Below, one piece after another: positions 35,257 to 55,179 of a stretch of 64,000 nt of DNA (position 1 is its first letter; every line of letters begins with the position of its first letter). The DNA comes from Nocardioides humi (lineage in GTDB: Bacteria; Actinomycetota; Actinomycetes; Propionibacteriales; Nocardioidaceae), in contig NZ_CP041146.1 of assembly GCF_006494775.1 (NCBI RefSeq), forward strand, positions 3,844,001-3,908,000. Reading direction: 5' to 3'. Made by a program: the position numbers and the translations under genes. The notes under the pieces are model-generated. The model saw only the letters and a program-made list of their open reading frames with translations. It ran no database searches and was not told the DNA's origin.

Positions 35257-35294
35257 TTGACATGCGGAAAACTTTATATAAAGATCTCCGCATG
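35257..35294 (+). promoter_or_regulatory. ArsR operator: 34-bp palindrome overlapping a TTGACA promoter
   Basis: A near-perfect palindrome spans 35261-35294: CATGCGGA at one end, TCCGCATG at the other and the perfect core CTTTATATAAAG (35272-35283). Only two base pairs of the 17 per half mismatch. The left end overlaps a consensus -35 TTGACA (35257-35262); an AAAGAT -10 lies 17 bp on (35280-35285). A start site near 35292 would make the mRNA begin at the ArsR ATG. Repressor bound here would cover the whole core promoter. Confidence 0.75.
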
Positions 35295-35591
35295 AGTTTG
35301 GTGGGCGACGACTACGGTCCGGTCACCGAGTTCTTCGGCGCCCTCGCCTCCCCGGTGCGGGCCGCCGTGATCCACCTGCTCACCGAACGACCCCACACCG
35401 TCTCGGAGATCGGCGCCGCGCTCGGCGCGTCGCAGCCCCTCGTCTCCCAGCACCTGCGCGTGCTCCGGGAGACCGGGCTGGTGACGACCGAGCGGTCCGG
35501 TCGGTCCACCGTCTACTCGCTGGCCGACGACCACGTGGCGCACGTCTTCCTCGACGCCCTCGTCCACACCCAGGAGAACACCGATGACTGA
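35292..35591 (+). CDS. ArsR/SmtB-family zinc-sensing repressor
   Basis: A winged-helix repressor of 99 residues from the ATG at 35292: ASPVRAAVIHLLTERPHTVSEI, recognition helix region ASQPLVSQHLRVLRETGLV, wing RSGRSTVYSLAD. The last helix carries D-x-H-x10-H-x2-E (ADDHV to HTQE), the full alpha-5 metal site of SmtB/CzrA-type sensors, which release DNA when Zn(II) (or Co(II)) binds. It overlaps the His/Cys-rich gene by 8 bp, and its promoter is covered by a 34-bp palindrome, so it very likely represses itself and the metal-binding protein until metal is in excess. An earlier in-frame ATG at 35262 lies inside the palindrome and is less likely. Confidence 0.88.
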   Translation: MSLVGDDYGPVTEFFGALASPVRAAVIHLLTERPHTVSEIGAALGASQPLVSQHLRVLRETGLVTTERSGRSTVYSLADDHVAHVFLDALVHTQENTDD

Positions 35592-35907
35592 GTCCCAGCA
35601 CACCGCCGCCGAGGCCCACCACCACACCCACGGTCCGGGCTGCGGCCACCTCGCCGTGATCCACGGCGACCATGTCGACTACCTGCACGACGGCCACGTG
35701 CACCGCGAGCACGACGGCCACTACGACGAGTGCGCCCGCTGCTCGTGCCCCGACTGCACCGACAGCTGCGCCGTGTGCACGTGCGAGGGCTGCACCTGCC
35801 CGACCTGCAACCACAGCGTGTGCAGCTGCGAACACTGCGGCGGCGAGCCGTGCAGCTCGTGCGTGTGCAGCGACTGCACCTGCGCGACCTGCGCCCACGC
35901 CGCCTGA
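35584..35907 (+). CDS. His/Cys-rich metallothionein-like protein
   Basis: A 107-residue protein with 20 Cys and 16 His. The N-terminal third is His-rich (AHHHTHGPGCGH, then HGDHVDYLHDGHVHREHDGH), and the rest is an almost continuous run of CxC and CxxC units (ECARCSCPDC, CAVCTCEGCTCPTC, CSSCVCSDCTCATC). It has no signal peptide or membrane segment, so it should be cytoplasmic. It is coupled to the SmtB-type sensor by an 8-bp overlap, the classic logic of smtB-smtA, but I do not recognise it as SmtA/BmtA. The two-part design (His-rich loop region plus Cys cluster) suggests storage or buffering of several zinc ions. Function is inference from composition and context. Confidence 0.8.
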   Translation: MTESQHTAAEAHHHTHGPGCGHLAVIHGDHVDYLHDGHVHREHDGHYDECARCSCPDCTDSCAVCTCEGCTCPTCNHSVCSCEHCGGEPCSSCVCSDCTCATCAHAA

Positions 35908-35952: not shown

Positions 35953-36226
35953 GCGGGCCTGCGTGGTTGGTGATGCGCGTGGTCGGTCGGGTGCTGTAAC
36001 ACGTGGTTGGCGGCTGCGGCAGCCCGTTGTCCGCTGTAACACGTTGTCCGCATCTCTACCAGCCCGATGACTTCGCGCATCGGCCGTTGTGGGCGGCTGG
36101 TACCGCAGTCATCGGGCGGGTAGGCGGGCGAACCACGTGTTACAGCCGATGCTCGGCGGCCAGGTGCGCGAACGACGTGTTACAGCAGGCATGCGGCGGC
36201 CAGGTGGGCGAACAGCGTGTTACAGC
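35953..36226. repeat. Symmetric array of 40-bp-spaced 19-mer repeats in inverted orientation
   Basis: The 413-bp gap 35908-36320 holds no gene but a striking array. The 19-mer GCTGTAACACGTGGTTGGC occurs forward at 35993 and 36033 and inverted at 36128, 36168 and 36208; a degenerate forward copy is at 35953. All steps are exactly 40 bp. The two arms are mirror images around 36089.5, and the centre has a perfect arm pair CCCGATGACT (36063-36072) and AGTCATCGGG (36107-36116). The 21-bp spacers are poorly conserved, which suggests protein-binding sites rather than one copied block. Confidence 0.75.
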
Positions 36227-36320
36227 ACGCAGGGGCACGACGGGCTCGCCCTCGCCAGCCGCATCGCCACGCCGGTGCCATGACGTCACGGGATGCCGGG
36301 TGGCGCCGCGGCCGCGACGG

Positions 36321-37103
36321 TCAGGGCACCCGCTGCGCGCGGACCAGCCGGAACTCGGCCGCCACCTCGACCCGCCCGAACCGGTCGGCGTACCCGGCCA
36401 GGTGCTCCTCGACCGCGTCCATCATCTCCTCGGCGTGCTCGCCGGCGAGCGCCATCGCGCCGAGGTGCGCCGGCGACGTCCGCTCGAGCCAGCGCCGCCC
36501 GGCCGCGGCCGAGGGGAAGGTCCACGGGAGCGTGTGCGTGTCGATCCGTACGTCGAGGAAGCGCGGCGCGAGGAGCTCCTCGAGGAAGGACGGCGATCCC
36601 CAGCGCCGCGGCCGGTGCGCGCCGCCGGGTGCGGGCAGGTACGCCGCCATCGCCTCGGTCATCCCCGCCATGTGCCCGTCGTCGGTCCACGAGGTGAGCG
36701 CCAGCCGCCCGGCCGGCGTCAGCACGCGGGCGACCTCGGCCATGGCGGCGACCGGGTCGGCGGCGAAGATGAGCCCGAAGGACGAGGTCACCAGGTCCTG
36801 GGAGGCGTCCGGGCACGGCTGGGCGGCCAGGTCCGCGCGCAGCCACTCGACCTCCTGGATCTCGTGGTCGGTCGCCTGCTCGCCGAGCGCGACCAGGTGC
36901 GCCGATCCGTCGGTCGCCGTGACCCGCCAGCCCGCGTCGGCGAGGCGCAGCGCCACGCTGCCCGTCCCGGCGGCGACGTCCAGTGCGAAGCGGCCCCGCC
37001 CGGGGCCGGCCCCGCCCGCCACCAGCGCGGCGGCCGGCTCCAGCCGCCGCGCCATCGCCGGGTAGTCGCCCCGGCCCCAGAGGTCGTCGGCCGGGTCCGT
37101 CAT
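36321..37103 (-). CDS. Class I SAM-dependent methyltransferase
   Basis: A methyltransferase of 260 residues. Motif I is ALDVAAGTGSVALRLADAG (near residues 40-58), motif II-like region TATDGSAHLVALGEQ follows, and post-motif segments DLVTSSFGLIFAADP and RVLTPAGRLALTSW fit the UbiE/Methyltransf_11 group. The substrate is unknown. The ATG overlaps the stop of the HU gene by 4 bp, so the two are co-transcribed, and this pair faces away from the zinc operon. Confidence 0.83.
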   Translation of the reverse strand: MTDPADDLWGRGDYPAMARRLEPAAALVAGGAGPGRGRFALDVAAGTGSVALRLADAGWRVTATDGSAHLVALGEQATDHEIQEVEWLRADLAAQPCPDASQDLVTSSFGLIFAADPVAAMAEVARVLTPAGRLALTSWTDDGHMAGMTEAMAAYLPAPGGAHRPRRWGSPSFLEELLAPRFLDVRIDTHTLPWTFPSAAAGRRWLERTSPAHLGAMALAGEHAEEMMDAVEEHLAGYADRFGRVEVAAEFRLVRAQRVP

Positions 37104-37387
37104 GCGGTCCGGCCCTCCGCCACCTGCCGCCGGAAGGCCGCCGCCGGCTTGAAGGCCGGCGCGACGGTCGCCGGGATCTCCATCGGCTCGCCCGTCTGCG
37201 GGTTGCGGCCGCTGCGGGCCGCGCGGTCACGCCGCTCGAAGGTCCCGAAGCCCGGGAGGGCGACGCTGCCGTGCTCGGCCACGCCGCGGGCGATGCCGTC
37301 GAGGGTCGCCGCGACGGCCTCGGCCGCCTGGTGGGTGGTCAGGCCGGTCGCCTCGGCGACGGCGGCGGTCAGGTCGGTGCGGTTCAT
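37100..37387 (-). CDS. HU-family nucleoid DNA-binding protein
   Basis: A short HU protein of 95 residues: MNRTDLTAAVAEATGLTTHQAAEAV helices (read in parts), then GSVALPGFGTFERRDRAARSGRNPQTGEPMEIPA, which forms the beta arm and contains the family GFGTF and GRNPQTG motifs. It lacks the long Lys/Ala-rich tail of the main mycobacterial/nocardioform HU, so it is probably a secondary copy. A GGAGGG site precedes the ATG. Its promoter region is shared with the Zur box at 37439, 51 bp upstream, so Zur might affect it too. Confidence 0.87.
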   Translation of the reverse strand: MNRTDLTAAVAEATGLTTHQAAEAVAATLDGIARGVAEHGSVALPGFGTFERRDRAARSGRNPQTGEPMEIPATVAPAFKPAAAFRRQVAEGRTA

Positions 37388-37438
37388 CTGGCCCTCCTGG
37401 GGTCCGTCCGGTGCTGTCGGGCAACACCCTAGTGCAAA

Positions 37439-37453
37439 TGATAATCGTTCTCA
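37439..37453 (+). promoter_or_regulatory. Zur box TGATAATCGTTCTCA
   Basis: A 15-bp imperfect palindrome fitting the Zur pattern TGAnAAnnnTTnTCA. It lies 52 bp before the first gene of the surface zinc-capture operon, with a TAGAGT -10 candidate just after it (37456-37461). It is almost the same as the box at 52721. Confidence 0.8.
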
Positions 37454-37505
37454 TGTAGAGTCCCGACCTCCGACGGAGCCGCCGTCGGTGGAGAGGGACA
37501 ATCCC

Positions 37506-39119
37506 ATGAGAAGCATCAGCTCACTGACCGCGCTGGCCCTGGCCAGTGGCGCCGTGGCCGTCGGCCTGGCCGCTCCCGCGGCCGCCGCCGACCGGCCGGT
37601 GGTCCTCGACCGGGGCCACATCGACCTGTTCGAGGTCACCTACGACGCGTCCAGTGCCGGCCTGAGACTCCAGGTGAAGGACGACACGCAGCTGCACGAC
37701 CCGGGGGCGACCTACCGCGACCCCGAGGACGTGACCATCGCGGTCGACGAGGAGCTCGCGGCCCTGACCATCCCCGAGGGCCTGCCCCCGTCCTTCGCCT
37801 TCCTCGGCGAGCCCGGGGACGTCGTCTACGACCTGCCGCAGACCCAGGACCCGCAGCTGCCCTGGCCCGGCTGGAGCACCGAGCGGCTCAACGGCACGCT
37901 GCCCGCCGGCACCACGCTCGCCTCGGGCGCGCCGGTGCAGCTGGCCGTCGAGGTGGAGGGGCCCGGCGACGTCCACACGTTCATGAACAGCCCGACGGGC
38001 GAGGTCATCAACCACTACGTCGACAGCAGCGACGGCGGGCCCGACATCATCCCCGTCAGTGCGAACGCCCACGTGCACACCGAGTGGATCTTCACCGAGC
38101 TCGGCGACTACACGCTCGAGGTCACCCCGACCGCGCAGGTGCAGGGCGGCGGCACGATCACGGGTACGCCGGCCAGCTACCACATCCGCGTCGGCGACCC
38201 GGCCCCCGCGGACCTCGGCGTCGAGGTCACGGCCAACAAGCCGGACGCGACCTACCTCTACGGCCAGGGCATCACGCTCACCGCGGCCCCGACCGCGGAG
38301 ACCGACCTCGACCACTACCACTGGTTCATCAAGCGGGCCGGCGGTGCCGACTACGTGATCAGCAGCCTGTCCAGCACGGCCGAGCTCAAGCTGCCGACCT
38401 CGCTGGCCTGGGACGGCGCGCAGGTCTACGCCAACCTCTACGACCACGCCCACAACGTGGTGGCGTCCTCCGAGCCGCTGACCCTGCACGTCTCCCAGCT
38501 GCCACAGGTCACCACGCTCACCGCGCAGGCCGACAAGGCGTCGTACGCCGTGGGGGAGACGGCGCACTTCACGTCCACGCAGAGCCCGGCGACGGGTGAG
38601 GACCACTTCCACTGGTACGTCCGCAAGCCCGGCGAGGAGTTCTCCACCTACATCCCGGACTCCAACCAGGCCACCGCGGACCTGCCGATCACCGCGGACC
38701 TGCAGGGCGCCGAGGTCATCGCCCGGCTCTTCGACCACGACCACGCGGTCATCGCCGAGTCCGCCCCCGTCGTCGTGAGCCTCGCCGGTGCCGCCGCCCC
38801 CACGCCGCCGCCGGCCGCGGGCAAGGCGGTCAGCCAGGTCGGCGTGAAGGTGAAGCCGAAGCGGATCACGCCCGGCAAGCGCGCCAAGGTCAAGGTCGCG
38901 GTCACCGTCCCGTCGGCGCCGGGCACCCCGGTCACCGGCAAGGTCGTGATCCGCGACGGCAAGCGGAAGATCGCCACCGGGAAGGTGAAGGCGAACGGCA
39001 AGGTCGTCGTACGGCTGCCCCGGCTCAAGGCCGGCAAGCACACGATCACGGTCGTCTACAAGGGCGACGCCGGCACCGAGGGCTCGGTCGCGACCCAGGT
39101 CGTGAAGGTGCGTCGCTGA
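37506..39119 (+). CDS. Secreted choice-of-anchor M domain protein with Ig-like domains
   Basis: A secreted protein of 537 residues and the first gene of the Zur-type operon. The signal peptide ends near residue 29 (APAAAADRP). A surface-anchored repeat domain (about 30-240) carries GHIDLFEVTYD at the start and the HVHTEW(I/F) signature at the end. Two Ig-like units follow (about 245-425), each with a DH(Y/F)HW motif and a DH(A/D)H motif. A Lys/Val-rich Ig-like repeat with basic character forms the C-terminus; there is no sorting signal, so it may bind the wall non-covalently. The many paired His residues suggest zinc binding. GAGAGGGA precedes the ATG. Confidence 0.82.
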   Translation: MRSISSLTALALASGAVAVGLAAPAAAADRPVVLDRGHIDLFEVTYDASSAGLRLQVKDDTQLHDPGATYRDPEDVTIAVDEELAALTIPEGLPPSFAFLGEPGDVVYDLPQTQDPQLPWPGWSTERLNGTLPAGTTLASGAPVQLAVEVEGPGDVHTFMNSPTGEVINHYVDSSDGGPDIIPVSANAHVHTEWIFTELGDYTLEVTPTAQVQGGGTITGTPASYHIRVGDPAPADLGVEVTANKPDATYLYGQGITLTAAPTAETDLDHYHWFIKRAGGADYVISSLSSTAELKLPTSLAWDGAQVYANLYDHAHNVVASSEPLTLHVSQLPQVTTLTAQADKASYAVGETAHFTSTQSPATGEDHFHWYVRKPGEEFSTYIPDSNQATADLPITADLQGAEVIARLFDHDHAVIAESAPVVVSLAGAAAPTPPPAAGKAVSQVGVKVKPKRITPGKRAKVKVAVTVPSAPGTPVTGKVVIRDGKRKIATGKVKANGKVVVRLPRLKAGKHTITVVYKGDAGTEGSVATQVVKVRR

Positions 39120-39122
39120 CCC

Positions 39123-41339
39123 ATGAAGGCACTCCTGCGCGTGTTCCTGCCCCTCCTGCTCCTGCTCGTCGCGAGCGGACTCGTCGTAGCGCCGGCCGAG
39201 GCCGAGGCCGATCCGGTGACGGTGCTGAGCACCTCCGACGGGCCCGTCATCGTGTTCGACGTCGCGACCGCACCCGACGGTACGCCGCGGCTGGCGCTGG
39301 TCCAGGACGAGCAGGCGCATGCGCCGGCCGAGGTCCTCCTCGCGCTCGGGGAGGCCCTCGGCAACGGGGTGCCGCTCGGATGGAGCACGCACCGGGCGCC
39401 CGACGCGGCGCCCGGTGCGGCCCTCACCATCGACCTGGCGGTCACCGGACCCGGCGCGGTGGTCGTCCAGGACGCCGACCCCGACGGGAGACTGACCCTC
39501 GCGCCGGACAGCGAGGGCTGGCCGCTGTGGTCGTTCTCCGAGCCCGGCCGGTACGTCGTGGACGCGACCCTCGCCGGCGTGACGACGCGCTACCTGCTCG
39601 ACGTACCGGCACCTGCGGAGGAGCCCGTCGAGCCCCCGCCCGTCGAGCCCCCGCCCGTCGAGCCGGAGCCGGTCGAGCCGGAGCCCACCGACGTGCCGCC
39701 CGCACCTCCGGTGACTCTGGCGGTGCAGGAGGACGACTGCGCGGTCCCGGGCCTGCCCGCGGGCGCGGTGCGGGTCAGCGCGGGCCACTTCGACTACGGC
39801 GTCCAGGTCGCCGGCGGCCAGGCCGTCTCCCGGGTCAAGGACGACCGCACCTCGCCCGCGACCTGGCGGGACCCGGCGACGATGCTGTTCGAGGTCGGCG
39901 AGCCGGCCCGCCAGCAGGTGCCGGACAATCCCGCCCTCGCGTTCCTGGGGACCGCCGGCAGCACCATCTGGACCATCGGCCAGGTCCAGGCCGACGGCGT
40001 GCCGTGGCTCGGCTGGAACACCCAGCACGAGAGCGCGATCGCGAACATCCAGGGCGGTACGACCTGGCGCCTGGACTCCGTCGAGGGTCCCGGCCGGCTG
40101 TTCGTCTACCAGACCGGCTCGTTCGGCTCGATCTCGCCGGTGCTGGGCACCGCCGACGGCTGGCCGCGCAGCACCGTCATCCCCGCCAACACCCACGCCC
40201 ACGGCAACTGGTCCTTCACCGAGCCGGGGGTGTACCGGGTACGGACGACCCACCTGGCCCGGCTGACCTCCGGGCAGGACGTGACCAGCACCGGCACGCT
40301 GACCTTCCGGGTCGGGCCCTGCGCACAGCAGGCGCCGGGACCGGCGGACGGCGCCGGCGCCGGCGACAGCGGCAGCGGCGGCAAGGGCGGCGGCAAGACC
40401 AAGGGGGAGAAGCAGGAGAAGCAGACCGCGGAGACAGGCGCCGACGCGCCGGCACCTGTTCCCGCCCGCGAGCCCTCGGCCTGCGTCCCGGCTCCCCGCG
40501 GCCAGGGCGGCGCGAGCCCGTCCGGCTCCTCCGGCTCGGCCGACCCCGCCACACCGACCACGCCCCAGGCCGCGCAGACCGCGGTCAGCGACGGCCATTT
40601 CGACTTCGGCTCGGTCATCGAGGGCACCGCCCTGCAGGCCCGGGTGAAGGACGACCGCACCCAGCCGCCGAGCTGGGTGGAGCCGGAGTCGCTGAGGTTC
40701 GTGCTCGGGAAGGCCGCCGAGCAGCAGGTCCCCGCCGGCTCGGCGTACTCCTTCCTCGGTGAGCCGGGCGCCCCGATCTGGCTGATCCCGCAGACCCAGG
40801 TCAGCGGCGTGCCCTGGCTGGGCTGGAACACCCAGCACGAGACCGTCCGGCAGCAGGTCAGCGGCTCGGTGCGCTACCGGCTCGACGGCGTCAGCGGGCC
40901 CGGCGAGCTGGCGGTCTACCTCACCGACTCCTTCGGTGGGGTCGGGCAGAAGGTGTTCGGCAACGCGACCGGCTTCCCGCGCTCCTTCGACGTCCCGCTC
41001 AACGTGCACGCCCACGGCAACTGGGTCTTCACCGCGCCGGGCACCTACCAGGTCACCATCACCCAGTCCGCCACGCTCACCGGCGGGAGATCCGTCTCCG
41101 ACCAGGCCACGCTGACCTTCGTCGTCGGCGGATCGGGCAGCGGCGGCGGGGGCCGGAGCGTCGGCCTGACCGTCCCCCTCGCCCTGCCGGTGGCGACGAC
41201 CCGCGACTGCGTCATCCCCGCCACCGGCGCCGACGACAGCCTCACCCTGCTGCTGCCGCTCGGCGTCACGCTGGTGGCGGCCGGCGCGGCCGTGCTCGGC
41301 GTACGCCGCCGGGCGATCCGCCGCCTCACCCATGTCTAG
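39123..41339 (+). CDS. Surface-anchored protein with three anchored-repeat (TIGR03769-type) domains
   Basis: A 738-residue protein starting 3 bp after the previous stop. It has a signal peptide, a divergent first domain (about 25-160), a Pro/Glu-rich linker with repeated VEPPPVEP, and two full repeat domains (about 215-398 and 489-669). Each full domain runs from a GHFD(Y/F)G motif to an H-A-H-GNW signature, with VKDDRT and WLGWNTQHE between. A Gly/Lys/Ala-rich linker separates them. The C-terminus has IPATG, then a hydrophobic stretch and RRRAIRR, a variant sorting signal with Ile for Leu. It should sit at the cell wall and probably binds zinc. It fits the TIGR03773 type of the 'anchored repeat ABC transporter' system. 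Confidence 0.85.
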   Translation: MKALLRVFLPLLLLLVASGLVVAPAEAEADPVTVLSTSDGPVIVFDVATAPDGTPRLALVQDEQAHAPAEVLLALGEALGNGVPLGWSTHRAPDAAPGAALTIDLAVTGPGAVVVQDADPDGRLTLAPDSEGWPLWSFSEPGRYVVDATLAGVTTRYLLDVPAPAEEPVEPPPVEPPPVEPEPVEPEPTDVPPAPPVTLAVQEDDCAVPGLPAGAVRVSAGHFDYGVQVAGGQAVSRVKDDRTSPATWRDPATMLFEVGEPARQQVPDNPALAFLGTAGSTIWTIGQVQADGVPWLGWNTQHESAIANIQGGTTWRLDSVEGPGRLFVYQTGSFGSISPVLGTADGWPRSTVIPANTHAHGNWSFTEPGVYRVRTTHLARLTSGQDVTSTGTLTFRVGPCAQQAPGPADGAGAGDSGSGGKGGGKTKGEKQEKQTAETGADAPAPVPAREPSACVPAPRGQGGASPSGSSGSADPATPTTPQAAQTAVSDGHFDFGSVIEGTALQARVKDDRTQPPSWVEPESLRFVLGKAAEQQVPAGSAYSFLGEPGAPIWLIPQTQVSGVPWLGWNTQHETVRQQVSGSVRYRLDGVSGPGELAVYLTDSFGGVGQKVFGNATGFPRSFDVPLNVHAHGNWVFTAPGTYQVTITQSATLTGGRSVSDQATLTFVVGGSGSGGGGRSVGLTVPLALPVATTRDCVIPATGADDSLTLLLPLGVTLVAAGAAVLGVRRRAIRRLTHV

Positions 41340-42891
41340 GGCGTGTCTCCCTAGGCGGATCGCGGGCGGCGCGGCGCTGGCGGTGCTCCTGACCGCCTGC
41401 GCCGCGCCGCCCACCCTCTCGGAGCACGACGGCCGGCTCCAGGTGATCACCACCACCGGGCTGATCGCCGACCTGGTCCGCAATGTCGGCGGCGACGACG
41501 TGAACGTCGTGTCGCTGGTGCCGGACGGCGCGGACCCGCACAGCTACGAGCCGAGCCTGCGCCGCGCGCGCGACGTGGTCTACGCCGACGTCGCCTTCAG
41601 CAACTACCTGCTGCTGGAGGAGCACAGCGTGATCAAGGTGCTCGACGCCAACCTGCCCGACGACGCCGTGAGCATCTCGCTCGCCGAGGACGCGGTGAAG
41701 TACGCCGCCGAGATCATCCCGCTCGTCGAGAAGGTCAACCTCGACACGATCTGGCTGGGGCTGCGGGTCCACGGCCGCGGCGAGCAGTACGGCGCCACCC
41801 GGACCTCCGACGTCCTCCTCTCCGCGACCGGCATGACCGGCCCGGGCCGGATGGTCGGCTACCTGACCGGCTCCTTCGGCGACCCGGAGGTCTACTTCGA
41901 CAGCGAGGACGGCTTCGAGGCCACCGACGGCTACCGCGACGACACCGCCGTCCTCCCCGCGGACGCGCACACCCACATGTCCTGGTCCTTCTCCGAGCCC
42001 GGCGTCTACACGGTCGACTTCGCCGCACGGCTGCAGGTGGACAGCGCGTCGAGGTCGGTGCCGATCGGGACCACGACGGTGACCTTCGCCGTCGGCGTGC
42101 CGCCCGCCGAGGCGGGCGAGGGCCGGCCGCTGGACCGCGGCCACGCGGACGTCACCGTCGACCTCGACGGCGGCGACCTCGACATCCGCTACGACCCCGA
42201 GGGCGGCGGCGAGCACAGCCAGGAGGAGCTCGACCCGGCGGCGGTCGTGGTCGACGTACCCGCGAAGGCGCTGGTCGAGATCCCCGGCGACGAGCGGCTC
42301 GGCTTCCTCGGCCGGCCCGGGACGCCGGTCTACCAGCTGCCGCAGGCCGTGCTCGGCAAGCACGTGCACGGCGAGATCGACCCGCACCTGTGGCAGGACG
42401 TCGGCAACGTGATGGCCTACGCCGAGCTGATCCGCGACACCCTGATCGACGCCGACCCCGAGCACGCGCTGGCCTACCGGAAGCGGGCCGACGCCTATCT
42501 CGCGGAGCTGGAGCGGCTCGACGCCTACGTCCGCGACACCCTCGCCGAGGTGCCGGAGAGCCGCCGCTACCTGGTGACCACCCACGACGCGTTCGGCTAT
42601 CTCGCCCACGCCTACGGCCTCCAGGTCGCCGGGTTCGTCACCCCCAACCCGGCCACGGAGCCGTCGCTCGCCGACCGCCGCAAGCTCGTCGGGACCATCC
42701 GCACCCTCGGGGTGCCGGCGGTCTTCCTCGAGCCGAACCTGCGGGCCCGGTCGTCGGTGCTCACCCAGGTCGCCGAGGAGGAGGGCGTCGAGGTCTGCGC
42801 GATCTACGGCGACGCCTTCGACGACCGGGTGCACAGCTATGTCCAGATGATGCGCTTCAACGCAGAGGAGATCCGCACGTGCTTGTCCTGA
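41332..42891 (+). CDS. Anchored-repeat-type ABC transporter zinc-binding lipoprotein (chimeric)
   Basis: A substrate-binding lipoprotein of 519 residues with lipobox LLTACA. The outer parts are a ZnuA-type (cluster A-I) metal-binding protein: residues about 35-125 include TTTGLIADLVRNVGGDDV and DGADPHSYEPS with a ligand His; residues about 340-519 include EIDPHLWQD, TTHDAFGYLAHAYGLQ and FLEPNL with further ligands. Between them (about 130-335) an entire surface-repeat domain is inserted, ending in HTHMSWSF. This matches TIGR03772. The inserted domain may receive zinc from the wall proteins. The ATG overlaps the previous stop by 8 bp. Confidence 0.88.
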   Translation: MSRACLPRRIAGGAALAVLLTACAAPPTLSEHDGRLQVITTTGLIADLVRNVGGDDVNVVSLVPDGADPHSYEPSLRRARDVVYADVAFSNYLLLEEHSVIKVLDANLPDDAVSISLAEDAVKYAAEIIPLVEKVNLDTIWLGLRVHGRGEQYGATRTSDVLLSATGMTGPGRMVGYLTGSFGDPEVYFDSEDGFEATDGYRDDTAVLPADAHTHMSWSFSEPGVYTVDFAARLQVDSASRSVPIGTTTVTFAVGVPPAEAGEGRPLDRGHADVTVDLDGGDLDIRYDPEGGGEHSQEELDPAAVVVDVPAKALVEIPGDERLGFLGRPGTPVYQLPQAVLGKHVHGEIDPHLWQDVGNVMAYAELIRDTLIDADPEHALAYRKRADAYLAELERLDAYVRDTLAEVPESRRYLVTTHDAFGYLAHAYGLQVAGFVTPNPATEPSLADRRKLVGTIRTLGVPAVFLEPNLRARSSVLTQVAEEEGVEVCAIYGDAFDDRVHSYVQMMRFNAEEIRTCLS

Positions 42892-43877
42892 AGAGGCCCG
42901 TCCTGAACCGGTGGCGGGCCGTCGCGCTGGCCGCGCTGCCCCTGCTGCTCGTCCCGGCCGCCGCGGCCGCCCCCGGCGACCCCACCCCGACCGTGCCACC
43001 GGGCGACGGCGCCCTGCAGCAGACGATCGACCCCGACCAGGAGGTCGCGACCGACGACGTCGTGCTGGAGCAGGGCCACGTCGACCTCGGCCCACGCGAT
43101 GTGGACGGCGAGTGGGTGCTGATGGTCCACGACGACACGCAGCTGGCCGGGTCCGTGTGGCGTCCCCTCGAGCACGCGGTGATCCGGGTGCGCGACGCCG
43201 GCATCCAGCAGGTGCCTGACGACCCGGCGTACTCCTTCCTGGGCGTCGACCCCGGCACCGGCGTGCACGTCGTGCCACAGACCCAGAACCCCGACGTGGT
43301 CTGGCTCGGCTGGAACACCCAGGACCCGTCGGTGCTGGAGAGCGTGGACCGCGGCGTCACCCTGACCCTGCGCGGCGTGGACGGTCCCGGCCACCTCGTC
43401 GTCTACCTCCAGGACGGCGGCTTCGGCGAGCCCGACGTGCTCTGGGACTCAAGAGATCTTGTGGCGCGCGACAGCACGGGCCAGCGGCTGTGGGTCGACG
43501 TCAACACCCACACCCACGCCAACTGGGTGTTCAGTGCGCCCGGCACCTACCTCGTGTCGATCGCCGCCACCGCGACCCTCGTCGACGGCACCGAGCAGAC
43601 CACCGCCGGCACCCTCCGGCTGGCCGTCGGCGACGCCGCCGACCCGGAGCAGGCCCGCCACGCCGAGGCGAGCGCCCCGGCCACGCCGGACGCGGGCGCC
43701 GCGGAGGACGCCGGGGAGGACCCCGAGGCGGCCGAGTCCGCCGAGGACGGTACGCCGGCCTGGCTGTGGGCCGTCGGGGCGGGCGCGGTCGTCCTGGCCG
43801 GCGTGCTGCTGGCCGTGGTCGCGCGCGGTCGTCGTACCCGGGCCCGGGCGCTGGTGGACGAGGGGACCGAGGTATGA
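42879..43877 (+). CDS. Membrane-anchored choice-of-anchor M domain protein
   Basis: A 332-residue protein with an N-terminal signal segment, one surface-repeat domain (about 60-250; GHVDLGPRD, then VVWLGWNTQDP and HTHANWVF), an acidic Ala/Glu-rich linker, and one C-terminal membrane segment followed by RGRRTRARA. The GTG at 42879 overlaps the previous stop by 13 bp and has a GAGGAG site 9 bp upstream, which decides the start. It would stay in the membrane next to the transporter and may pass zinc from wall proteins to the binding protein; that relay is inference. Confidence 0.8.
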   Translation: MLVLKRPVLNRWRAVALAALPLLLVPAAAAAPGDPTPTVPPGDGALQQTIDPDQEVATDDVVLEQGHVDLGPRDVDGEWVLMVHDDTQLAGSVWRPLEHAVIRVRDAGIQQVPDDPAYSFLGVDPGTGVHVVPQTQNPDVVWLGWNTQDPSVLESVDRGVTLTLRGVDGPGHLVVYLQDGGFGEPDVLWDSRDLVARDSTGQRLWVDVNTHTHANWVFSAPGTYLVSIAATATLVDGTEQTTAGTLRLAVGDAADPEQARHAEASAPATPDAGAAEDAGEDPEAAESAEDGTPAWLWAVGAGAVVLAGVLLAVVARGRRTRARALVDEGTEV

Positions 43878-44644
43878 GCGCCGGCCTGCAGGTGCGCGGC
43901 CTCGATGTCGATCTCGGCGGCCGGCCGGTGCTGCGCGGCGTCGACCTCGACCTCGCACCCGGCGAGCTGGTCGGCCTGATCGGCCCCAACGGCGCGGGGA
44001 AGACCACCCTGCTGCGGAGCATCCTCGGCCTGACCCGGGTCCGGTCGGGACAGGTCGCGGTCGGCGGCCGGCCGGTGCGCCGCAGGCGCGGCGACATCGG
44101 CTACGTCCCCCAGCGCCACGAGTTCGCCTGGGACTTCCCGATCTCGGTCGAGCAGGTCGTGCTCACCGGCCGGGTCGGCGGGCTGCGCCCCGGCCGCGGG
44201 CCCCGCGTCGACGACTGGAGGGCGGTCGACCGGGCGCTGGGACTGGTCGCCATGGCCGACCTCCGCCGCCGCCCGGTCGGTGAGCTCTCCGGGGGGCAGC
44301 GGCAGCGGGTGCTGGTGGCCCGGGCGCTCGCGCTCGACCCCTCGGTGCTGCTGCTCGACGAGCCGTTCACCGGCCTGGACCTGCCGACCCAGGAGTCGCT
44401 GCTCGCGATGTTCACCGACCTCGCCGACGGAGCGAGCGGGGAGGCCCGCGCGGTACTGATGACGACCCACGACATCGCCTCCGCCCTCTTCGCCTGCGGC
44501 CGCGTCGTCCTGCTCAACCGGACGGTCGTCGCGACCGGCACCGCCGGCGAGCTGCGCGCCCGGCCCGAGGCGTGGACGGAGACCTTCGGCGTCGGGATCG
44601 ACAGCCCGTTCCTGCGGGTGCTCGACGCGGGGGTGCTGACGTGA
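43874..44644 (+). CDS. Anchored-repeat-type (zinc) ABC transporter ATP-binding protein
   Basis: A 256-residue ABC ATPase of the metal (ZnuC/MntB) group, TIGR03771 type. Walker A is GPNGAGKTT (near 38-46), Q-loop YVPQRHEFAWDFP, signature LSGGQRQR, Walker B VLLLDEPFTGLD, H-loop MTTHDI. The FAWDFPISVEQVVLTGR segment is typical of metal importers. The ATG overlaps the previous stop by 4 bp. It powers the permease encoded next. Confidence 0.9.
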   Translation: MSAGLQVRGLDVDLGGRPVLRGVDLDLAPGELVGLIGPNGAGKTTLLRSILGLTRVRSGQVAVGGRPVRRRRGDIGYVPQRHEFAWDFPISVEQVVLTGRVGGLRPGRGPRVDDWRAVDRALGLVAMADLRRRPVGELSGGQRQRVLVARALALDPSVLLLDEPFTGLDLPTQESLLAMFTDLADGASGEARAVLMTTHDIASALFACGRVVLLNRTVVATGTAGELRARPEAWTETFGVGIDSPFLRVLDAGVLT

Positions 44645-45528
44645 GCCCGCTCGACTTCCTCGCCGACCTGACCAACCCCGACCTGCGGTTCCTCCCCAAG
44701 GCGCTGGCCGTCGCCGTGATGTCGTCGCTCGTGTGCGGCGTCGTCGGCTGCTATGTCGTCCTGCGCGGCATGGCGTTCATCGGCGACGCCGTCGCCCACG
44801 CGGTCTTCCCCGGCCTCGCCGTCGCGTTCGTGGTCTCGGGCAACCTGATCGTCGGCGGGACCGTCGCCGGCGTCCTCACCGCCGTGCTGATCGCGGTGTT
44901 CAGCCAGGGCCGGCGGCTCAAGGAGGACTCCGTGATCGGCATCTTCTTCGTCGCCGCCTTCGCGCTCGGCGTCGTGATCATCTCCCGCGCGCCCGGGTAC
45001 GCCGGCTCGCTCCAGCAGTTCCTGTTCGGCTCCATCGCCGGGGTGCCCGACCGCGACCTCGCCGTGATCGCGGTGACGGGCCTGGTGGTCCTGACCGTGC
45101 TGTTCCTGCTCCACCACGGGCTGGTCGCGGTCACGCTCGACCGGGAGATGGCCCGCGCGCTCGGCCTGCGCGTCTTCCTCCACGACCTGGTCCTCTACGT
45201 CCTGGTCACCCTGGCCGTGGTGATCTCGGTGCAGACCATCGGCAACGTCCTGGTCCTCGCCCTGCTGGTGGCGCCGGCCGCGACCGCCCGGCTGCTGACC
45301 GACCGGCTGGGGGTGATGATGGCGCTCGCGCCGCTGATCGGGACCACCGGCGCGGTGCTCGGCCTCTACGTGTCGTGGTCGTGGGACCTGCCGGTCGGCG
45401 GCACCGTCGTGCTGGTCCTGGCGGCCTGCTTCCTCCTCGCCTGGCTCGCGGCTCCGCGGCACGGCGTCCTGGCCGCCCTCCGGCGGATCGGGGCCTCCGG
45501 GGGTGAGGCCGCGGCGTACCCCGGGTGA
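44641..45528 (+). CDS. Anchored-repeat-type (zinc) ABC transporter permease
   Basis: A 295-residue permease of the ABC-3 (ZnuB-like) family, TIGR03770 type, with about eight to nine membrane segments. Marks are FLPKALAVAVMSSLVCGVVGCYVVLRGMAFIGDAVAHAVFPGLA (read in parts) and IGNVLVLALLVAPAATARLL, both conserved in metal permeases. The GTG overlaps the ATPase stop by 4 bp. It is the last gene of the Zur-type operon; a 22-bp palindrome follows at 45585 and may end the transcript. Confidence 0.9.
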   Translation: MSPLDFLADLTNPDLRFLPKALAVAVMSSLVCGVVGCYVVLRGMAFIGDAVAHAVFPGLAVAFVVSGNLIVGGTVAGVLTAVLIAVFSQGRRLKEDSVIGIFFVAAFALGVVIISRAPGYAGSLQQFLFGSIAGVPDRDLAVIAVTGLVVLTVLFLLHHGLVAVTLDREMARALGLRVFLHDLVLYVLVTLAVVISVQTIGNVLVLALLVAPAATARLLTDRLGVMMALAPLIGTTGAVLGLYVSWSWDLPVGGTVVLVLAACFLLAWLAAPRHGVLAALRRIGASGGEAAAYPG

Positions 45529-45647: not shown

Positions 45648-48326
45648 ATGAGCAGCGAGCAGGTGACGGCCGCGGCCCGGATCCCGGGTGTCGTCGACCG
45701 GCCCCGGCTGCACCGCCTCCTCGACGCGCCGGATCCGCAGATCTGCGTGCTGCTCGGCCCGAGCGGGATCGGCAAGACGACGCTGCTGCGCAGCTGGGCG
45801 CTGCAGCGGGAGTCCGACGAGCCGTTGATCTGGATCAGCCTGGAGTCCGGCATCGCCAGCAGGTCGGCGTTCTGGCAGCAGGTCGTCAGCAGCGCCCGGC
45901 GGCTCGCCGACCTCTCGGCGGACGAGGCGAGCCGGCTCGGTACGGCGCCCGACCCGGCCGCGGTCGCCGTCCGGATCCTCGCCGCGGCGGGCCCGGTGAC
46001 GGTCGTGCTGGACGCCTACGAGCACCTCGGCGACATCGCCGCCGAGGTCGACGCGGACGTGCTCCGGGTCGTCAGCCAGGCCCCGCGGCTGCGGGTGCTG
46101 GTCGCGACGCGCGGCAACACCACCCTCGCCGCAGACGCCCACCAGCTGCGCGGGCTCGCGCACGTCGTCGACAGCCGGGCGCTCGCGCTGACGACCGACG
46201 AGATCGCCGAGCTCGTCGTCACCCATCTCGGCCGGGAGGACCGGGGCCTCGCCGCGTCGATCGGCCGCGGCACGCGCGGCTACGCGCTGGCGGTGCGGGC
46301 GGCGGTGCTGGCGCTCGCGCGCCTCGGCGAGGCGCCCCGCATCGGCTCGGTCGAGTGGGAGACGGCCGTTGCCTCGGACCTGGCCTCGCTGCTGCCCGAC
46401 GAGGCGGCGGCCGAGTTCCTGGTGGCGACCAGCGTGGCGCCGTACTTCGACGCTCCCCTCGCCGAGCGGCTGACCCGGCACCCGGACGTCCCGGGCCTGC
46501 TCTCCTTCCTGGAGCGCAACGGGTTCGGGCGGTGGGTGCCCTACGCCCGCGGCCGGTCGGTCTTCCAGTACGTCGAGTCGATCCGCGACTCCTTCCGCGC
46601 CCGGGCCGCGGCCGACGGGAGCGCCCTCCGGGCGGCCTCGGCCACCGTGGCCGCCTGGCTGTTCGACAACGAGGACTACGACCACTCGCTGCGCTACGCC
46701 ATCGACGCCGAGGACTACGCCTTCGCCGAGCGGGTCTTCCTGCACCTCCTCGTCACGGACCCCTCGAGCTACATCTCCGACCGCTTCCTCGGCTCGCTCC
46801 ACGGCCTCTCCGCGGCGACCCAGGAGGAGCATCCGCTGCTGGCGTTCGCCCTCGGTCTGGCCCTCGCGTGCAGCCCGGTGCTGAGGTCCGACGCGGTGGG
46901 TCCGTTCCGGCGCGTGCTGGACTCGCCGGTGCAGCCGTCGTACTTCGAGCCGGCGTTCGACCGCTTCGCCGACGAGAGCCTGCGGGCGGTGGCGTGGCGG
47001 CTGGTCTTCCGCTTCCGCGAGTCGGCCGAGGCCAGCGCGAAGGCCGTGCAGCTCGCCGAGGAGCTCGACCCGGACCTGCGCACGCAGCTCGGTGACTTCG
47101 TCGCGACCATCCTGCGCCAGCTCAGCTACTCGCTGCTCCAGGGCGGCCGGTACGACGAGGCGCTGAGCACGATGACCCGCTCGGCGTCGCTGTGCACGAG
47201 CCAGACGTCGCGCAACTACTCGGTCGCCTACGCCGCCGGCACCTTCGCCTTCCTGGGCGACGTCGCGAAGGCGCGGGCCACGCAGGTCACCATCGACTAC
47301 GGCGTGTGGCCCGACGTGTTCCGGCAGTCCTACATGAACGCCTTCGGCCTGCTCGCCGAGGGCTACGCCCTCCTCGACGACCTCGACTTCGCCGGCGCGG
47401 TGGGGCTCTTCGGCGAGACGGCGTCGTACACCCAGACCGCGGAGTTCTGGCCCTTCCTGACCGCGATCCCGATGGCGGCGCGGCTGGGCCTCGGGCAGGC
47501 GCGGGCCGAGGCGGAGCGGATCGCGCGGGAGCTGGCCGCGCCCTTCCCGCCGCCCGGCTTCGGCGACAACGTCGCCAGCGAGCACCTCTGCGGGGTGCTG
47601 GCCCTGCTGTGGCTCGCCGCCGGCGACCTCGCCGCCGCCCGCGCGGTGATCGAGAGCCAGCCGGCGGACAGCCCGCACCTGTCGCCCGCGCGCCTCGCCG
47701 CGCTGCTCCACGCCGGGCACTACCGCGAGGCCCTGCGCTGCGCCGCCACCGAGCTCGCGCTGCCGGGGCACACGGTCCGCACGCGCGCGGCGACGCAGAC
47801 GCTGGCCGCGGCCGCCGCGCTGCGCCAGGGCGACGAGGCCGAGGCGCTCGTCCTGCTGCAGGGCGCCGCCATCGCCTACGAGACCTACGGCGTGCGCTCG
47901 CACCTGACCTACCTCTCCGACCACGACCACCAGGCGCTGGTCCGCTTCGCCGGCCGGGTCGGGCCGGCCGGCCTGGCGGCGTACGTCGACGTCGGCCTGC
48001 CGCGGACGGCCGCCACCACGACCCGGACGCCGACCCTCACCTCCCGCGAGCGGGCGGTGCTGCAGGCCCTGGCCGTGCACGGGTCGACCCGGGCGGCGGC
48101 GGAGGTCCTCTACGTGTCCCCGAACACGGTGAAGACCCAGCTCCGCTCGGTCTACCGCAAGCTGGGCGTCTCCTCGCGCGAGGCGGCGCTGAGCATCGCC
48201 GGTCAGATGGGTCTGCTCGATCCGAGCGGCTCCGGCCCCGGCCCGGGAACCGGTCCCGGCGCCGGCCCGGGCGCCGGCCCGGGCACCGGCCCGGGCAGCG
48301 GCCCGGGCACCGGCTCCGGGCAGTGA
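45648..48326 (+). CDS. MalT-like (LAL) LuxR-family transcriptional regulator
   Basis: A regulator of 892 residues, full-length paralogue of the broken gene at 4429. The N-terminal ATPase has P-loop LGPSGIGKTTL (near residues 35-45) and VVLDAYEHLGD as Walker B region. A long helical-repeat middle follows, and the C-terminal LuxR HTH reads SRERAVLQALAVHGSTRAAAEVLYVSPNTVKTQLRSVYRKLGVSSREAAL (in parts; about 795-855). The protein ends in a 30-residue Gly/Pro tail with GPGTGPGAGPG units. GGAGGGGG precedes the ATG. It sits inside the zinc island but has its own promoter space; whether it reads metal stress is unknown. Its 3' end overlaps the second Zur box. Confidence 0.88.
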   Translation: MSSEQVTAAARIPGVVDRPRLHRLLDAPDPQICVLLGPSGIGKTTLLRSWALQRESDEPLIWISLESGIASRSAFWQQVVSSARRLADLSADEASRLGTAPDPAAVAVRILAAAGPVTVVLDAYEHLGDIAAEVDADVLRVVSQAPRLRVLVATRGNTTLAADAHQLRGLAHVVDSRALALTTDEIAELVVTHLGREDRGLAASIGRGTRGYALAVRAAVLALARLGEAPRIGSVEWETAVASDLASLLPDEAAAEFLVATSVAPYFDAPLAERLTRHPDVPGLLSFLERNGFGRWVPYARGRSVFQYVESIRDSFRARAAADGSALRAASATVAAWLFDNEDYDHSLRYAIDAEDYAFAERVFLHLLVTDPSSYISDRFLGSLHGLSAATQEEHPLLAFALGLALACSPVLRSDAVGPFRRVLDSPVQPSYFEPAFDRFADESLRAVAWRLVFRFRESAEASAKAVQLAEELDPDLRTQLGDFVATILRQLSYSLLQGGRYDEALSTMTRSASLCTSQTSRNYSVAYAAGTFAFLGDVAKARATQVTIDYGVWPDVFRQSYMNAFGLLAEGYALLDDLDFAGAVGLFGETASYTQTAEFWPFLTAIPMAARLGLGQARAEAERIARELAAPFPPPGFGDNVASEHLCGVLALLWLAAGDLAAARAVIESQPADSPHLSPARLAALLHAGHYREALRCAATELALPGHTVRTRAATQTLAAAAALRQGDEAEALVLLQGAAIAYETYGVRSHLTYLSDHDHQALVRFAGRVGPAGLAAYVDVGLPRTAATTTRTPTLTSRERAVLQALAVHGSTRAAAEVLYVSPNTVKTQLRSVYRKLGVSSREAALSIAGQMGLLDPSGSGPGPGTGPGAGPGAGPGTGPGSGPGTGSGQ

Positions 48327-48338
48327 GAATGATGTTCA
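48324..48338 (+). promoter_or_regulatory. Zur box TGAGAATGATGTTCA with leaderless promoter
   Basis: A 15-bp Zur-like palindrome whose first three bases are the stop codon of the LuxR gene. A TAGTCT -10 hexamer (48356-48361) ends 7 bp before the permease ATG, with no ribosome site between, so the permease mRNA is probably leaderless and Zur-controlled. Confidence 0.7.
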
Positions 48339-51150: not shown

Positions 51151-51344
51151 CGGCTCCTCCCTCCCGTGGGTCGTCCGGTCGCGGGGTCGACGAGGCCGGC
51201 CCGGACGGCGGCGACCAGCCGGCGCGGCACCCGGAACCGCTCGCCGGCGACCGTCACCGGCACCAGGTCGGGCGCGGCGGCCTTCCACTGGGACCGGCGG
51301 TGCCGGGTGTTGCTGCGCGAGGTACGACGCTTCGGGACCGCCAT
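51147..51344 (-). CDS. rpmF: Ribosomal protein bL32, zinc-free form
   Basis: A 65-residue bL32 with the family opening [21 protein letters not shown]. The C-terminal zinc-binding CxxC pairs of the normal protein are absent and replaced by [19 protein letters not shown]. It overlaps the CobW-like gene by 1 bp and the rpmJ start by 4 bp. It should be made under zinc starvation in place of the zinc-containing L32. Confidence 0.88.
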
Positions 51345-52408
51345 CAGGCCACCTCCCGGATCGGGCCCAGCCAGGGCTCGAAGCCGTCCTCGGCGACCGA
51401 CCAGGAGCCGCGCTCGTCCTCGGCGACCAGCAGGCCCGCGAAGGCCTCGCGCAGGTGGGCGGGCGCGACGCCGACGCCGGTCAGCACGATCCGGGTGAAC
51501 GGCGTACGACGGGCCCAGCCGGCGTGGTCGCCGATGCTGAGCTGGCCGCCGGCGCCGTCCCACTCCAGGGCCCGGCCGGGGCGGCTGGGCAGCCAGAAGC
51601 AGCCGCGGGAGCGGTGCGCTCCGGCGCCGAGCGACTCCAGCGAGTCCAGCAGCCGGTCGGGGTGGAACGGCCGGAGCGACTGCAGGTCCAGCCGCCAGAC
51701 GCCCTCGGCGCGGACGTCGGGCAGCGCGTCGGTGCGGACCGGGCTGGTCCACGCGTCGGTCCGGGTGTGCTGGTGCAGCCGCCCGGTCAGGACGTCGCCC
51801 CCGAGCCCGTGACCGCCCTCGACCACGGTGGCGTCGGGCCGGGCCAGCGCCGTCACCAGGCCGCGGGCGACCGGGTCGACGGTGTCGTCGAAGGCCACCA
51901 CGTCGGCGTACTCCACCATCGCGGCGAGCACCTCCCCGACTCCGCGGCGGTCGTCCTGGGCGCAGTGGTGGCCGCGGTCGGCGAGCAGGTCGTCGCCGAG
52001 CAGGTCGCGCACGGGATGCCGGGCGCCGACGGCGGTGACGACCGCCGAGACCCGCAGGAACCGGGCCAGCCGGGTGTCCCAGGTCAGCACCGAGCACAGG
52101 TGCGCGGCCTCGGCGCCGACCGGCAGGTGCGCGACGATGCTCTGCCAGCGGCCGTCGCGGGCCAGCCGCTCGAGCGTCGGGAGGATGTCCTCGCGGATCG
52201 CGCAGCTCACGCAGGCGTGCTCGAGCAGCGTCTCGTGGGTCTCGACGACGCCGGTGAGATCGCTGACCGTCCGGGTGAGCAGGCCGCGCTCGGGGTCGAT
52301 GGCGTGCCGGACGGCGACCGCGCCGGGGAGGTCGAACTGCAGCCCGACCATGGTCGCGGCCATCGCGTCGGGGTCGACGCCGGAGAGCAGGACGACGGGC
52401 ACCCTCAT
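51344..52408 (-). CDS. CobW/COG0523-type protein with degenerate P-loop (Mrf-like)
   Basis: A 354-residue protein of the CobW/COG0523 family placed between rpmE and rpmF. Where canonical members have GxxGxGKTT, it has [16 protein letters not shown], so the Lys-Thr/Ser of Walker A is missing. The family GCxCC site is reduced to [10 protein letters not shown]. The CobW C-terminal domain is present (about 240-350: [10 protein letters not shown], then [11 protein letters not shown]). In mycobacteria, Mrf, a COG0523-like protein encoded with the zinc-free ribosomal genes under Zur, is needed to recruit the hibernation factor. Position and features fit that group; the role here is inference. The ATG overlaps the rpmE stop by 4 bp. 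Confidence 0.8.
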
Positions 52409-52720: not shown

Positions 52721-52735
52721 TGAGAATCGTTCTCA
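52721..52735. promoter_or_regulatory. Zur box TGAGAATCGTTCTCA between divergent ribosomal operons
   Basis: A perfect 15-bp Zur palindrome, set within a larger dyad (GCATGATT at 52710 and AATCATGC after the box). It lies 25 bp from the rpmE start and 34 bp from the rpmB start, so one bound Zur could shut off both directions. Confidence 0.9.
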
Positions 52736-54184: not shown

Positions 54185-55179
54185 ATGCGCGCCGACCGCC
54201 TGCTCCGCCTGCTCGCGCTGCTGCAGCGGCACCGGCGGCTCACGGCGGCCCGGCTGGCGGCGGAGCTGGAGGTCAGCGAGCGCACCGTGCTGCGCGACAT
54301 GGAGGCGCTGTCCGCGGCCGGGGTGCCGGTCTACACCGAGCAGGGCCGGGGCGGCGGCTGCGTGCTGCTGGAGGACTTCACCACCCGCGCCGCAGGCCTC
54401 ACTCCGGTCGAGGCGCAGGCGCTGTTCGCCTGGTCGGCCCGCGAGTCGGTCGCCGAGCTGGGCCTGTCCGGCCCGCTCGCCTCGGGGCTGGCGAAGATCG
54501 CCGCCAGCGCCCCCACCACGGCGGTGGAGCGTGCCGAGGCGATGGGCACGGTCGTCCACTCCGACCGGCGGCGCTGGTTCTCGCCGGCCGACGACGTCCC
54601 ATTGCTGCCGGTGCTGCGCGAGGCGACCACGCAGCGCCGGCGGCTGCGGGCGCGGTACACCTCGGCGGGCGCGGCCGCCCCGGCCACCCGGACGCTGCAC
54701 CCGATCGGCCTGGTCGACCACTCCGGCCGCTGGTACCTCGTGGCCGAGCACCGCCGGCAGGTGCGCACCTACCGGGTCTCCCGGTTCGCCGCCGCCACCG
54801 TGCTGCCCACCCCGGTCGATCTCGCCGACCCCCGTCCCGTCGCCGAGATCTGGGCCGACCTGCGCGGCGGCTTCGAGCAGGAGAGCGCGCAGGTCACGGC
54901 CGTCGTCACCGCCCGCCGCGCGGCCGCGCCCCTGCTGCGCCGGCTGCTGCGGATGGGACTGGCTCCCGGCACCGACATCGAGGTCGTCGGTGACCCCGCC
55001 CCGACGGCACCGAGACCTGGCGGCTGCGGACCACCAAGCCGGACGTGCTCACCGCGATGGCGGTCGTCTACACGCCCGACCTCACCCTGCTCGAGCCGGT
55101 GGCGCTGCGGGAGGGACTGCGGCGGCAGGCGGAGCGGGCGCTGGCGCACTACCCGCCGGACTCGGGCGTCAGGCGCTGA
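54185..55179 (+). pseudogene. YafY/WYL-domain transcriptional regulator, frameshifted
   Basis: A regulator of about 331 residues if intact: N-terminal HTH_11 (RADRLLRLLALLQRHRRLTAARLAAELEVSERTVLRDMEALS, read in parts), a WYL domain with GLVDHSGRWYLVAEHR, and a WCX C-terminal part. The first frame is lost near 55000; with one base added in GCCCCGACGG it continues as DGTETWRLRTTKPDVLTAM to HYPPDSGVRR and the TGA at 55177-55179. It is divergent from the DinB-like gene (87 bp apart), and a repeat with TGTCAGGTTCACC half sites lies between them, so it may control that gene. Confidence 0.78.

Follow-up and report, generated by a model that had tools for sequence, protein, structure and literature searches.

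A predicted self-regulating zinc-excess operon encoding a sensor of the SmtB type and a two-module, metallothionein-like His/Cys protein

What is the role of a 107-residue protein, rich in histidine and cysteine, that is encoded immediately behind an ArsR-type regulator and matches no Pfam or NCBIfam family? The question is raised by positions 35257 to 35907 of a 64-kb stretch (below, the window) of a 6.22-Mb single-contig genome. The pair is probably a self-regulating zinc-excess operon with a two-module metallothionein as its storage protein, a reading held here with some reserve. The alternatives are a part acting on zinc importers, a protein for another metal and a zinc donor for times of starvation; each is taken up below with the evidence that bears on it.

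The first gene (arsR, 35292..35591, plus strand) encodes a sensor of the ArsR/SmtB type with 99 amino acids. Its product exceeds the curated cut-offs of NF033788 (87.5 bits, cut-off 55) and PF01022 (53.9 bits, cut-off 22), winged-helix profiles that place it among the ArsR/SmtB metalloregulators. Residues 79-95 hold the ligand set of the alpha-5 zinc subgroup (SmtB/CzrA type; D-x-H-x10-H-x2-E/H), here D79-x-H81-x10-H92-x2-E95. The complete alpha-5 site proposed in the initial annotation was thereby found again, starting at residue 79. In a PDB comparison the protein aligns with SmtB (1r22), and its relatives include both NmtR and SmtB. Of 61 cassette-type ArsR proteins (two loci with a doubled His module included), 60 keep the whole alpha-5 set, and the remaining one (L066) is an ORF that ends before alpha-5. 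Cassette ArsRs (60 rows) and 11 paralogues from the window's own genome were split by one branch in 92% of 200 bootstrap trees, which were built on few columns. These comparisons support the assignment to the SmtB type, with all of the alpha-5 site present. Among the 11 paralogues examined, only one keeps the alpha-5 set (L142, G000:C1:2760000-2769000); the gene of this second alpha-5 ArsR is divergent from a cation-efflux (CDF) gene.

The second gene (35584..35907, plus strand) overlaps arsR by 8 bp and encodes the 107-residue protein with 20 Cys and 16 His; overlap, length and residue counts all agree with the initial annotation. Residues 1-49 form a His module (35584..35730, plus strand) that is homologous to the C-terminal tails of ZnuB-type permeases. 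It is followed by Cys block A (residues 50-77, 35731..35814, plus strand) with 10 Cys and Cys block B (residues 80-105, 35821..35898, plus strand) with 9 Cys, each ending in C-x-H. Block B is a weak internal repeat of block A. The similarity score of the two was reached by 37 of 1000 nulls in which the Cys positions were kept fixed, and an origin of the blocks by internal duplication is weakly supported.

For the 107-residue protein, Pfam and NCBIfam contain no family at E ≤ 1. In the PDB the matches of the whole protein were ryanodine receptor chains (12, none better than E 0.42), a profile of its relatives (alignment A1, below) matched three other chains (none better than E 0.27), and the Cys half alone had no match at E ≤ 10; no metallothionein was among these matches. 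Homology to the characterised bacterial metallothioneins of the SmtA/BmtA family was thus not detected in Pfam, NCBIfam or the PDB, in line with the earlier remark that the partner is unlike SmtA. The close match to a characterised metallothionein family that the initial annotation had named as the result to speak against it did not turn up in these three resources. In the broad sense of a short protein rich in CxC/CxxC motifs with conserved cysteines (20 Cys in 107 residues), the protein is metallothionein-like, and it looks like an undescribed actinobacterial metallothionein. The AlphaFold model is poor (mean pLDDT 58, pTM 0.42), and its low confidence lends no fold support to the proposed clusters.

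A search of genome contigs yielded 108 relatives of the His/Cys protein, which rules out a unique orphan; the best 80 were kept. Among these best 80 of the 108, the closest named relative is that of Nocardioides limicola (L040, 80% identity), and the family occurs in records of Nocardioides, Aeromicrobium, Cutibacterium, Arachnia, Actinomyces, Rothia, Dietzia and Pseudonocardia. Together with loci from kin genomes they gave 77 loci with both His and Cys parts. Seventy-two of these fit a strict ladder pattern (48 with ArsR upstream, 17 with none, four convergent, three with ArsR on the same strand, close to a FUR-family gene), and five with an altered ladder were added by hand (L074, L084, L087 and L109 with ArsR upstream, L085 without). 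Permease-tail loci (L002, L008, L016-L024, L026-L039), loci with His modules only, single or multiple (L025, L111-L119), and loci repeating the window (L005, L007, L010) were excluded. The 77 loci are a related, uneven sample and are not independent, since the window itself and near-identical genomes (L011/L058; L012/L068, identical ArsR) are among them.

ArsR is encoded directly upstream of the His/Cys gene at 52 of the 77 loci. The remaining 25, which count against the preferred reading, comprise 18 with no ArsR in the DNA examined around the locus, four with a convergent ArsR gene and three with ArsR on the same strand further along, before a FUR-family gene. In alignment A1, made from 45 of the 77 loci picked as full length, all 20 Cys (block A included) and 10 His are invariant; outside this set the ladder varies, for example in L084, L085 and L104. 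A single Cys block is present at three of the 77 loci (L104, L106, L108) and also in L145 (genome G096), with ArsR upstream. Judged from these genomes, the ArsR and His/Cys genes are a conserved cassette, and the partner belongs to a conserved family of actinobacterial proteins for which Pfam and NCBIfam have no model.

The promoter ahead of arsR (35257..35291, plus strand) is predicted to be leaderless. TTGACA at 35257-35262 is followed by 16 nt, TAAAGA at 35279-35284, 7 nt and the ATG at 35292, with TTGACA 29 nt ahead of this start codon. TAAAGA is the best -10 element by eye and is weak, and a mechanical promoter scan called no site at 35257-35291. The form TTGACA-N29-ATG/GTG recurs at 29 of the 77 loci (window included) against 0.24 expected from shuffles, which here, as for the palindrome and for the Zur-like boxes at the 77 loci (below), preserved base composition only. 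It is found at 23 of the 52 loci with ArsR upstream, at four of the 18 without ArsR and at two of the seven others; the 48 loci without it count against the preferred reading. Because of this recurrence, the leaderless start predicted in the initial annotation is regarded as well founded. A longer ArsR ORF is possible from an ATG at 35262, and the start at 35292 is preferred since the promoter spacing is conserved in relatives.

A 34-bp imperfect palindrome (CATGCGGAAAACTTTATATAAAGATCTCCGCATG, 35261..35294, no strand assigned) takes in the arsR start codon and is the likely ArsR operator. Fifteen of 17 positions pair, and when the 77-nt region was shuffled 2000 times by mononucleotide, no shuffle reached the palindrome's score; the palindrome that had been reported over the TTGACA promoter is therefore retained. 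It is unusually good relative to the other loci, a further point against the preferred reading. By an uncontrolled count in the same 34-nt frame over the 77 loci, pairing is best in L040 (16/17), followed by the window (15/17) and L090 (13/17); only these three loci reach at least 13 pairs and only 22 at least 10 of 17, with 19 at 10-12 pairs and the other 55 at fewer or without TTGACA. The low-GC relatives L053, L054 and L057 have a good palindrome and no TTGACA, and the Dietzia loci L072 and L078 as well as L086 keep an operator-like promoter with no ArsR found beside it. A 38-nt promoter/operator pattern has a single site in the genome at ≤3 mismatches (reversed control, 0), with no second operator at this threshold. 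The cassette may consequently be the sole target of its sensor.

The two halves, which the initial annotation proposed to search separately, differ in their distribution: in this and kin genomes the His half is usually a permease tail, and the Cys half was found only in fusions. The window's own genome encodes a permease of family PF00950, with znuA and an ABC ATPase gene as neighbours, whose tail is 64% identical to the His module over 45 residues (E 5.3e-11). By this homology the module belongs to the C-terminal His tails of PF00950 permeases. This genome and its kin contain matches in 56 of 58 genomes, only six of them full length, the window's own included. Inspection of 25 other His-only loci in this set revealed 24 permeases (the own genome's and 23 of kin) and one protein with a doubled His module (L025). 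All 24 tailed permeases have the module at the C-terminus or no more than about 30 residues from it; PF00950 was assigned by Pfam on two of them and to the rest by sequence match to the ABC-3 permeases of this set. As the tailed proteins are PF00950 permeases, the tail of a CDF exporter is ruled out as the source of the module.

Outside the permeases the module occurs free, as in a 51-residue protein that is encoded on a plasmid of Citricoccus and carries the annotation "zinc transporter permease", doubled (L025, L111, L112, L115-L119) and tripled (L113). Further matches (E 1e-7 to 3e-3) are on plasmids of Rhodococcus, Streptomyces, Pantoea, Cupriavidus, Paraburkholderia, Vibrio and Enterococcus. 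The ZnuB-type (PF00950) tails and small "zinc transporter permease" proteins are homologous to residues ~5-51, at about 48-69% identity. Unlike the window protein they have no Cys ladder, and their flanks (mostly ~1.5 kb) contain no SmtB-type ArsR gene, except at the double-His loci L025 and L115. The tripled form (L113, 5001-5444) comes from Actinoplanes and has its three His modules in tandem.

Among 396 genomes of the phylum, the Cys half alone matched only the window's genome (G000) and G255, both times fused to the His module, and a free-standing Cys-ladder family is ruled out on this count. The whole profile matched 41 of 296 genomes; only G000 and G255 are full length, G096 extends to position 89, and the others end by position 65, as judged by the profile match alone. 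Since the His half is a widespread module, the novelty lies in the fusion of the His module with the Cys ladder and not in the His segment; as far as these genomes tell, this fusion is the new part. The "new metallothionein class" of the initial annotation accordingly stands in part: no Pfam or NCBIfam family matches the protein and the ladder was found only in the fusion, but the His half was already a widespread module. Four His-motif strings were absent from the open-licence literature searched. None of the titles and abstract openings on bacterial and actinobacterial metallothioneins and on ZnuB tails describes the protein, in an open-licence collection that leaves subscription papers mostly outside.

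In some relatives the gene stands among zinc genes. The order is znuA, znuC, znuB, arsR, His/Cys gene and FUR-family gene in L061 and L064; L087 has the same order from znuC, where its contig begins. L102 has znuA, znuC, znuB, His/Cys gene and FUR-family gene without ArsR, and in L073 znuACB is followed by the His/Cys gene at the contig end. The His/Cys gene thus follows znuC-znuB in line at five loci, and in all of these except L073, four in number, a gene of the FUR family comes after it. Adjacent znu-like genes in the opposite direction occur at L050, L060 and the double-His locus L115. These assignments rest on Pfam for five L061 genes and the FUR genes of L087 and L102, and on sequence clustering for the rest. 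In the Pseudonocardiaceae loci L075-L077, ArsR is followed by a FUR-family gene (Pfam on L075).

The main rival to the storage reading starts from these observations. The protein would be a trans-acting importer tail that docks at ZnuB-type permeases via its His module and receives zinc or stops transport in excess, with the Cys ladder as its zinc reservoir or sensor. This is considered unlikely. In the same spirit, and with equally modest chances, a detachable importer tail may be imagined, in which a freed His module joined to a metallothionein ladder under an excess sensor docks at the importer mouth, takes the entering zinc and throttles uptake; if true, one small protein would join import control and storage. 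The position directly behind znuB or znuB-arsR at the five loci favours the trans-acting importer tail. So is a fused/split pattern: the module tails permeases at 24 of 25 His-only loci, whereas the tail is absent from all 11 ABC-3 permeases found at eight loci of the cassette type (Pfam on two of L061). This comparison of 24 tailed with 11 untailed permeases is, however, one of raw counts that ignore phylogeny. Moreover, the window's genome has both a tailed permease and the free protein, and free His or multi-His proteins occur with no annotated znu gene in view, for example on two plasmids. Finally, the double-His proteins of Nocardia (L111, L112, L117, L118, near 4833-5300) stand behind a transporter set of the amino-acid ABC type and not a zinc transporter, as seen by Pfam for L111 (SBP_bac_3/BPD_transp_1 and an ATPase) and by clustering for the other three.

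The window's surroundings bear on the metal. Behind the cassette lies a metal-uptake island (36003..45528, plus strand) of choice-of-anchor M surface proteins and an anchored-repeat ABC transporter (binding protein, ATPase, permease). For each of NF038134, TIGR03770, TIGR03771, TIGR03772 and TIGR03773, one or more of the six ORFs scanned exceeded the cut-off; the first ORF of the island is overlong at its 5' end. Four ORFs of the island have choice-of-anchor M domains over cut-off, one of them being the ABC binding protein (41332-42891), in which the anchor M domain (136-254) precedes an AztC/ZnuA-like part (344-518). Three Zur-like boxes, against 0.04 expected, are present on the plus strand of the window: TGATAATCGTTCTCA at 37439..37453, TGAGAATGATGTTCA at 48324..48338 with one mismatch, and TGAGAATCGTTCTCA at 52721..52735. 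The actinobacterial Zur consensus is quoted in the available text of PMC5472717. Of the Zur-controlled zinc-uptake island claimed earlier, profiles and boxes support a neighbouring metal-uptake island with Zur-like boxes. The cassette itself was not placed in a Zur regulon, as none of the window boxes (37439, 48324, 52721) stands beside 35257. Two CobW-type GTPases are encoded on the minus strand (51344-52408 and 55169-56194), both below the equivalog cut-offs; one of them is nearest to the ribosome-hibernation-recruiting GTPase MRF, and the third Zur-like box lies at 52721.

Zur-like boxes also occur upstream of four of the 18 ArsR-less loci, all in Actinomyces, against 0.035 expected. They have at most one mismatch and lie 150-230 nt before the conserved HG..CGH codons. 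At the same threshold of ≤1 mismatch, boxes were found at two of the 52 ArsR loci (0.4 expected) and at none of the seven others. In Actinomyces the boxes stand between divergently oriented genes, so that the neighbouring gene may be the one they control, which counts against the preferred reading. Zur is also an activator: according to the available portions of the respective papers, it activates the exporter gene zitB at high zinc in S. coelicolor (PMC5472717) and the metallothionein gene bmtA in the cyanobacterium Synechococcus WH8102 (PMC9337993). Zur-like boxes may therefore mean activation or repression and are no proof of starvation.

A metallothionein mainly for a metal other than zinc (Cd, Ni/Co or Cu) is somewhat less probable again than the importer tail. 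To our knowledge few actinobacterial metallothioneins are known, among them MymT, the known metallothionein of mycobacteria, which is a copper protein. The PDB relatives of the window ArsR include NmtR beside SmtB. Alpha-5 sensors differ in their metal, and the case for zinc is weakened by the ability of such sensors to answer others: AzuR is released in vitro by Zn, Cd, Cu, Co, Ni, Pb and Mn (PMC8790569, in part). Against another metal stand the Znu/FUR neighbourhood at relatives and the Zur-like boxes. By alignment, moreover, the D-x-H-x10-H-x2-E set is that of SmtB. A zinc-sparing donor, which some lineages would make in starvation and which would hand stored zinc to apo-proteins, is very improbable: the boxes at the four ArsR-less loci and the adjoining island with its Zur-like boxes and CobW/MRF-like GTPases would suit it, but an excess-type sensor stands upstream in 52 of 77 loci, only two of those 52 have a Zur-like box, and Zur also activates at high zinc (zitB, PMC5472717; bmtA, PMC9337993; both in part).

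For the preferred zinc-excess operon, the following course may be proposed. When zinc is scarce, an apo-ArsR dimer would sit on the palindrome over its own promoter and start codon and keep the operon silent. In zinc excess the alpha-5 sites would be filled and the dimer would leave the DNA, and a leaderless mRNA would then yield sensor and storage protein together via overlapping, coupled translation. The N-terminal His module would catch incoming zinc with moderate affinity, and the two CxC/CxxC blocks, with 10 and 9 Cys and a His at the end of each, would hold it in thiolate clusters until falling zinc lets the sensor shut the promoter again. Gene order, overlap, operator-like palindrome, conservation, shared module and the zinc-gene neighbourhood in relatives are read from the sequences themselves. 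That the metal is zinc, that zinc derepresses the operon and that the protein captures and stores it is inferred, the steps beyond the DNA anatomy being drawn by analogy from SmtB, AzuR/NmtA and mycobacterial SmtB. The proposal builds on the nearly universal alpha-5 set, the invariant Cys and His residues, the upstream ArsR in most loci, the conserved promoter spacing and the single genome operator. It also draws on the znu and FUR neighbours at relatives, the use of the His module as a permease tail in kin genomes, the Zur-like boxes at ArsR-less Actinomyces loci, and the precedents of AzuR/NmtA (PMC8790569) and M. smegmatis SmtB/zitA (PMC7174638), as far as the available text of these papers goes.

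The locus is like SmtB/SmtA and AzuR/NmtA in pairing an alpha-5 ArsR/SmtB repressor with a Cys/His storage protein, which is here a predicted one. It differs from both in its separate His module, its two Cys blocks, the absence of a family match, and the overlapping co-directional operon with a predicted leaderless promoter. SmtA is, in addition, far shorter than the 107-residue protein. SmtA of Synechococcus binds about 4 Zn per molecule (PMC10612145, in part). In Anabaena, AzuR is an alpha-5 repressor of the SmtB type that is encoded within znuABC and controls the metallothionein NmtA (PMC8790569, in part); nmtA lies apart from azuR, unlike the overlapping pair here. The mycobacterial SmtB-Zur arrangement shares the SmtB-type ArsR and, with L075-L077, the succession of ArsR and FUR-family gene. 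Its target in M. smegmatis, however, is the zinc exporter zitA (PMC7174638), as opposed to a storage-like protein, and the word metallothionein is absent from the main text of that paper. Zur-activated bmtA (Synechococcus WH8102; PMC9337993, in part) is alike in that a zinc sensor switches on a metallothionein; the sensor is a different one, and the parallel extends only to the ArsR-less Actinomyces loci with Zur-like boxes.

The family spans genera that include human commensals, usually with a sensor of its own. The importer-fused, free, doubled and tripled forms of the module, and its fusions with one or two Cys blocks, offer a comparison by which its role could be tested. The cassette is thereby also a clue to the His tails that zinc importers carry. 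Being small, with overlapping genes and one operator, it should be convenient for studying how zinc entry, sensing and storage are coupled.

At 35993-36226, 40-bp repeats with the core CGTGTTACAGC were observed, two copies being inverted relative to three. At ≤1 mismatch GAACNNCGTGTTACAGC has 62 sites in the genome (30 forward, 32 reverse), with none for the reversed-pattern control; they frequently form minus/plus pairs spaced by 97 or 137 bp. The CGTGTTACAGC/GAACNNCGTGTTACAGC element is a dispersed palindromic intergenic repeat.
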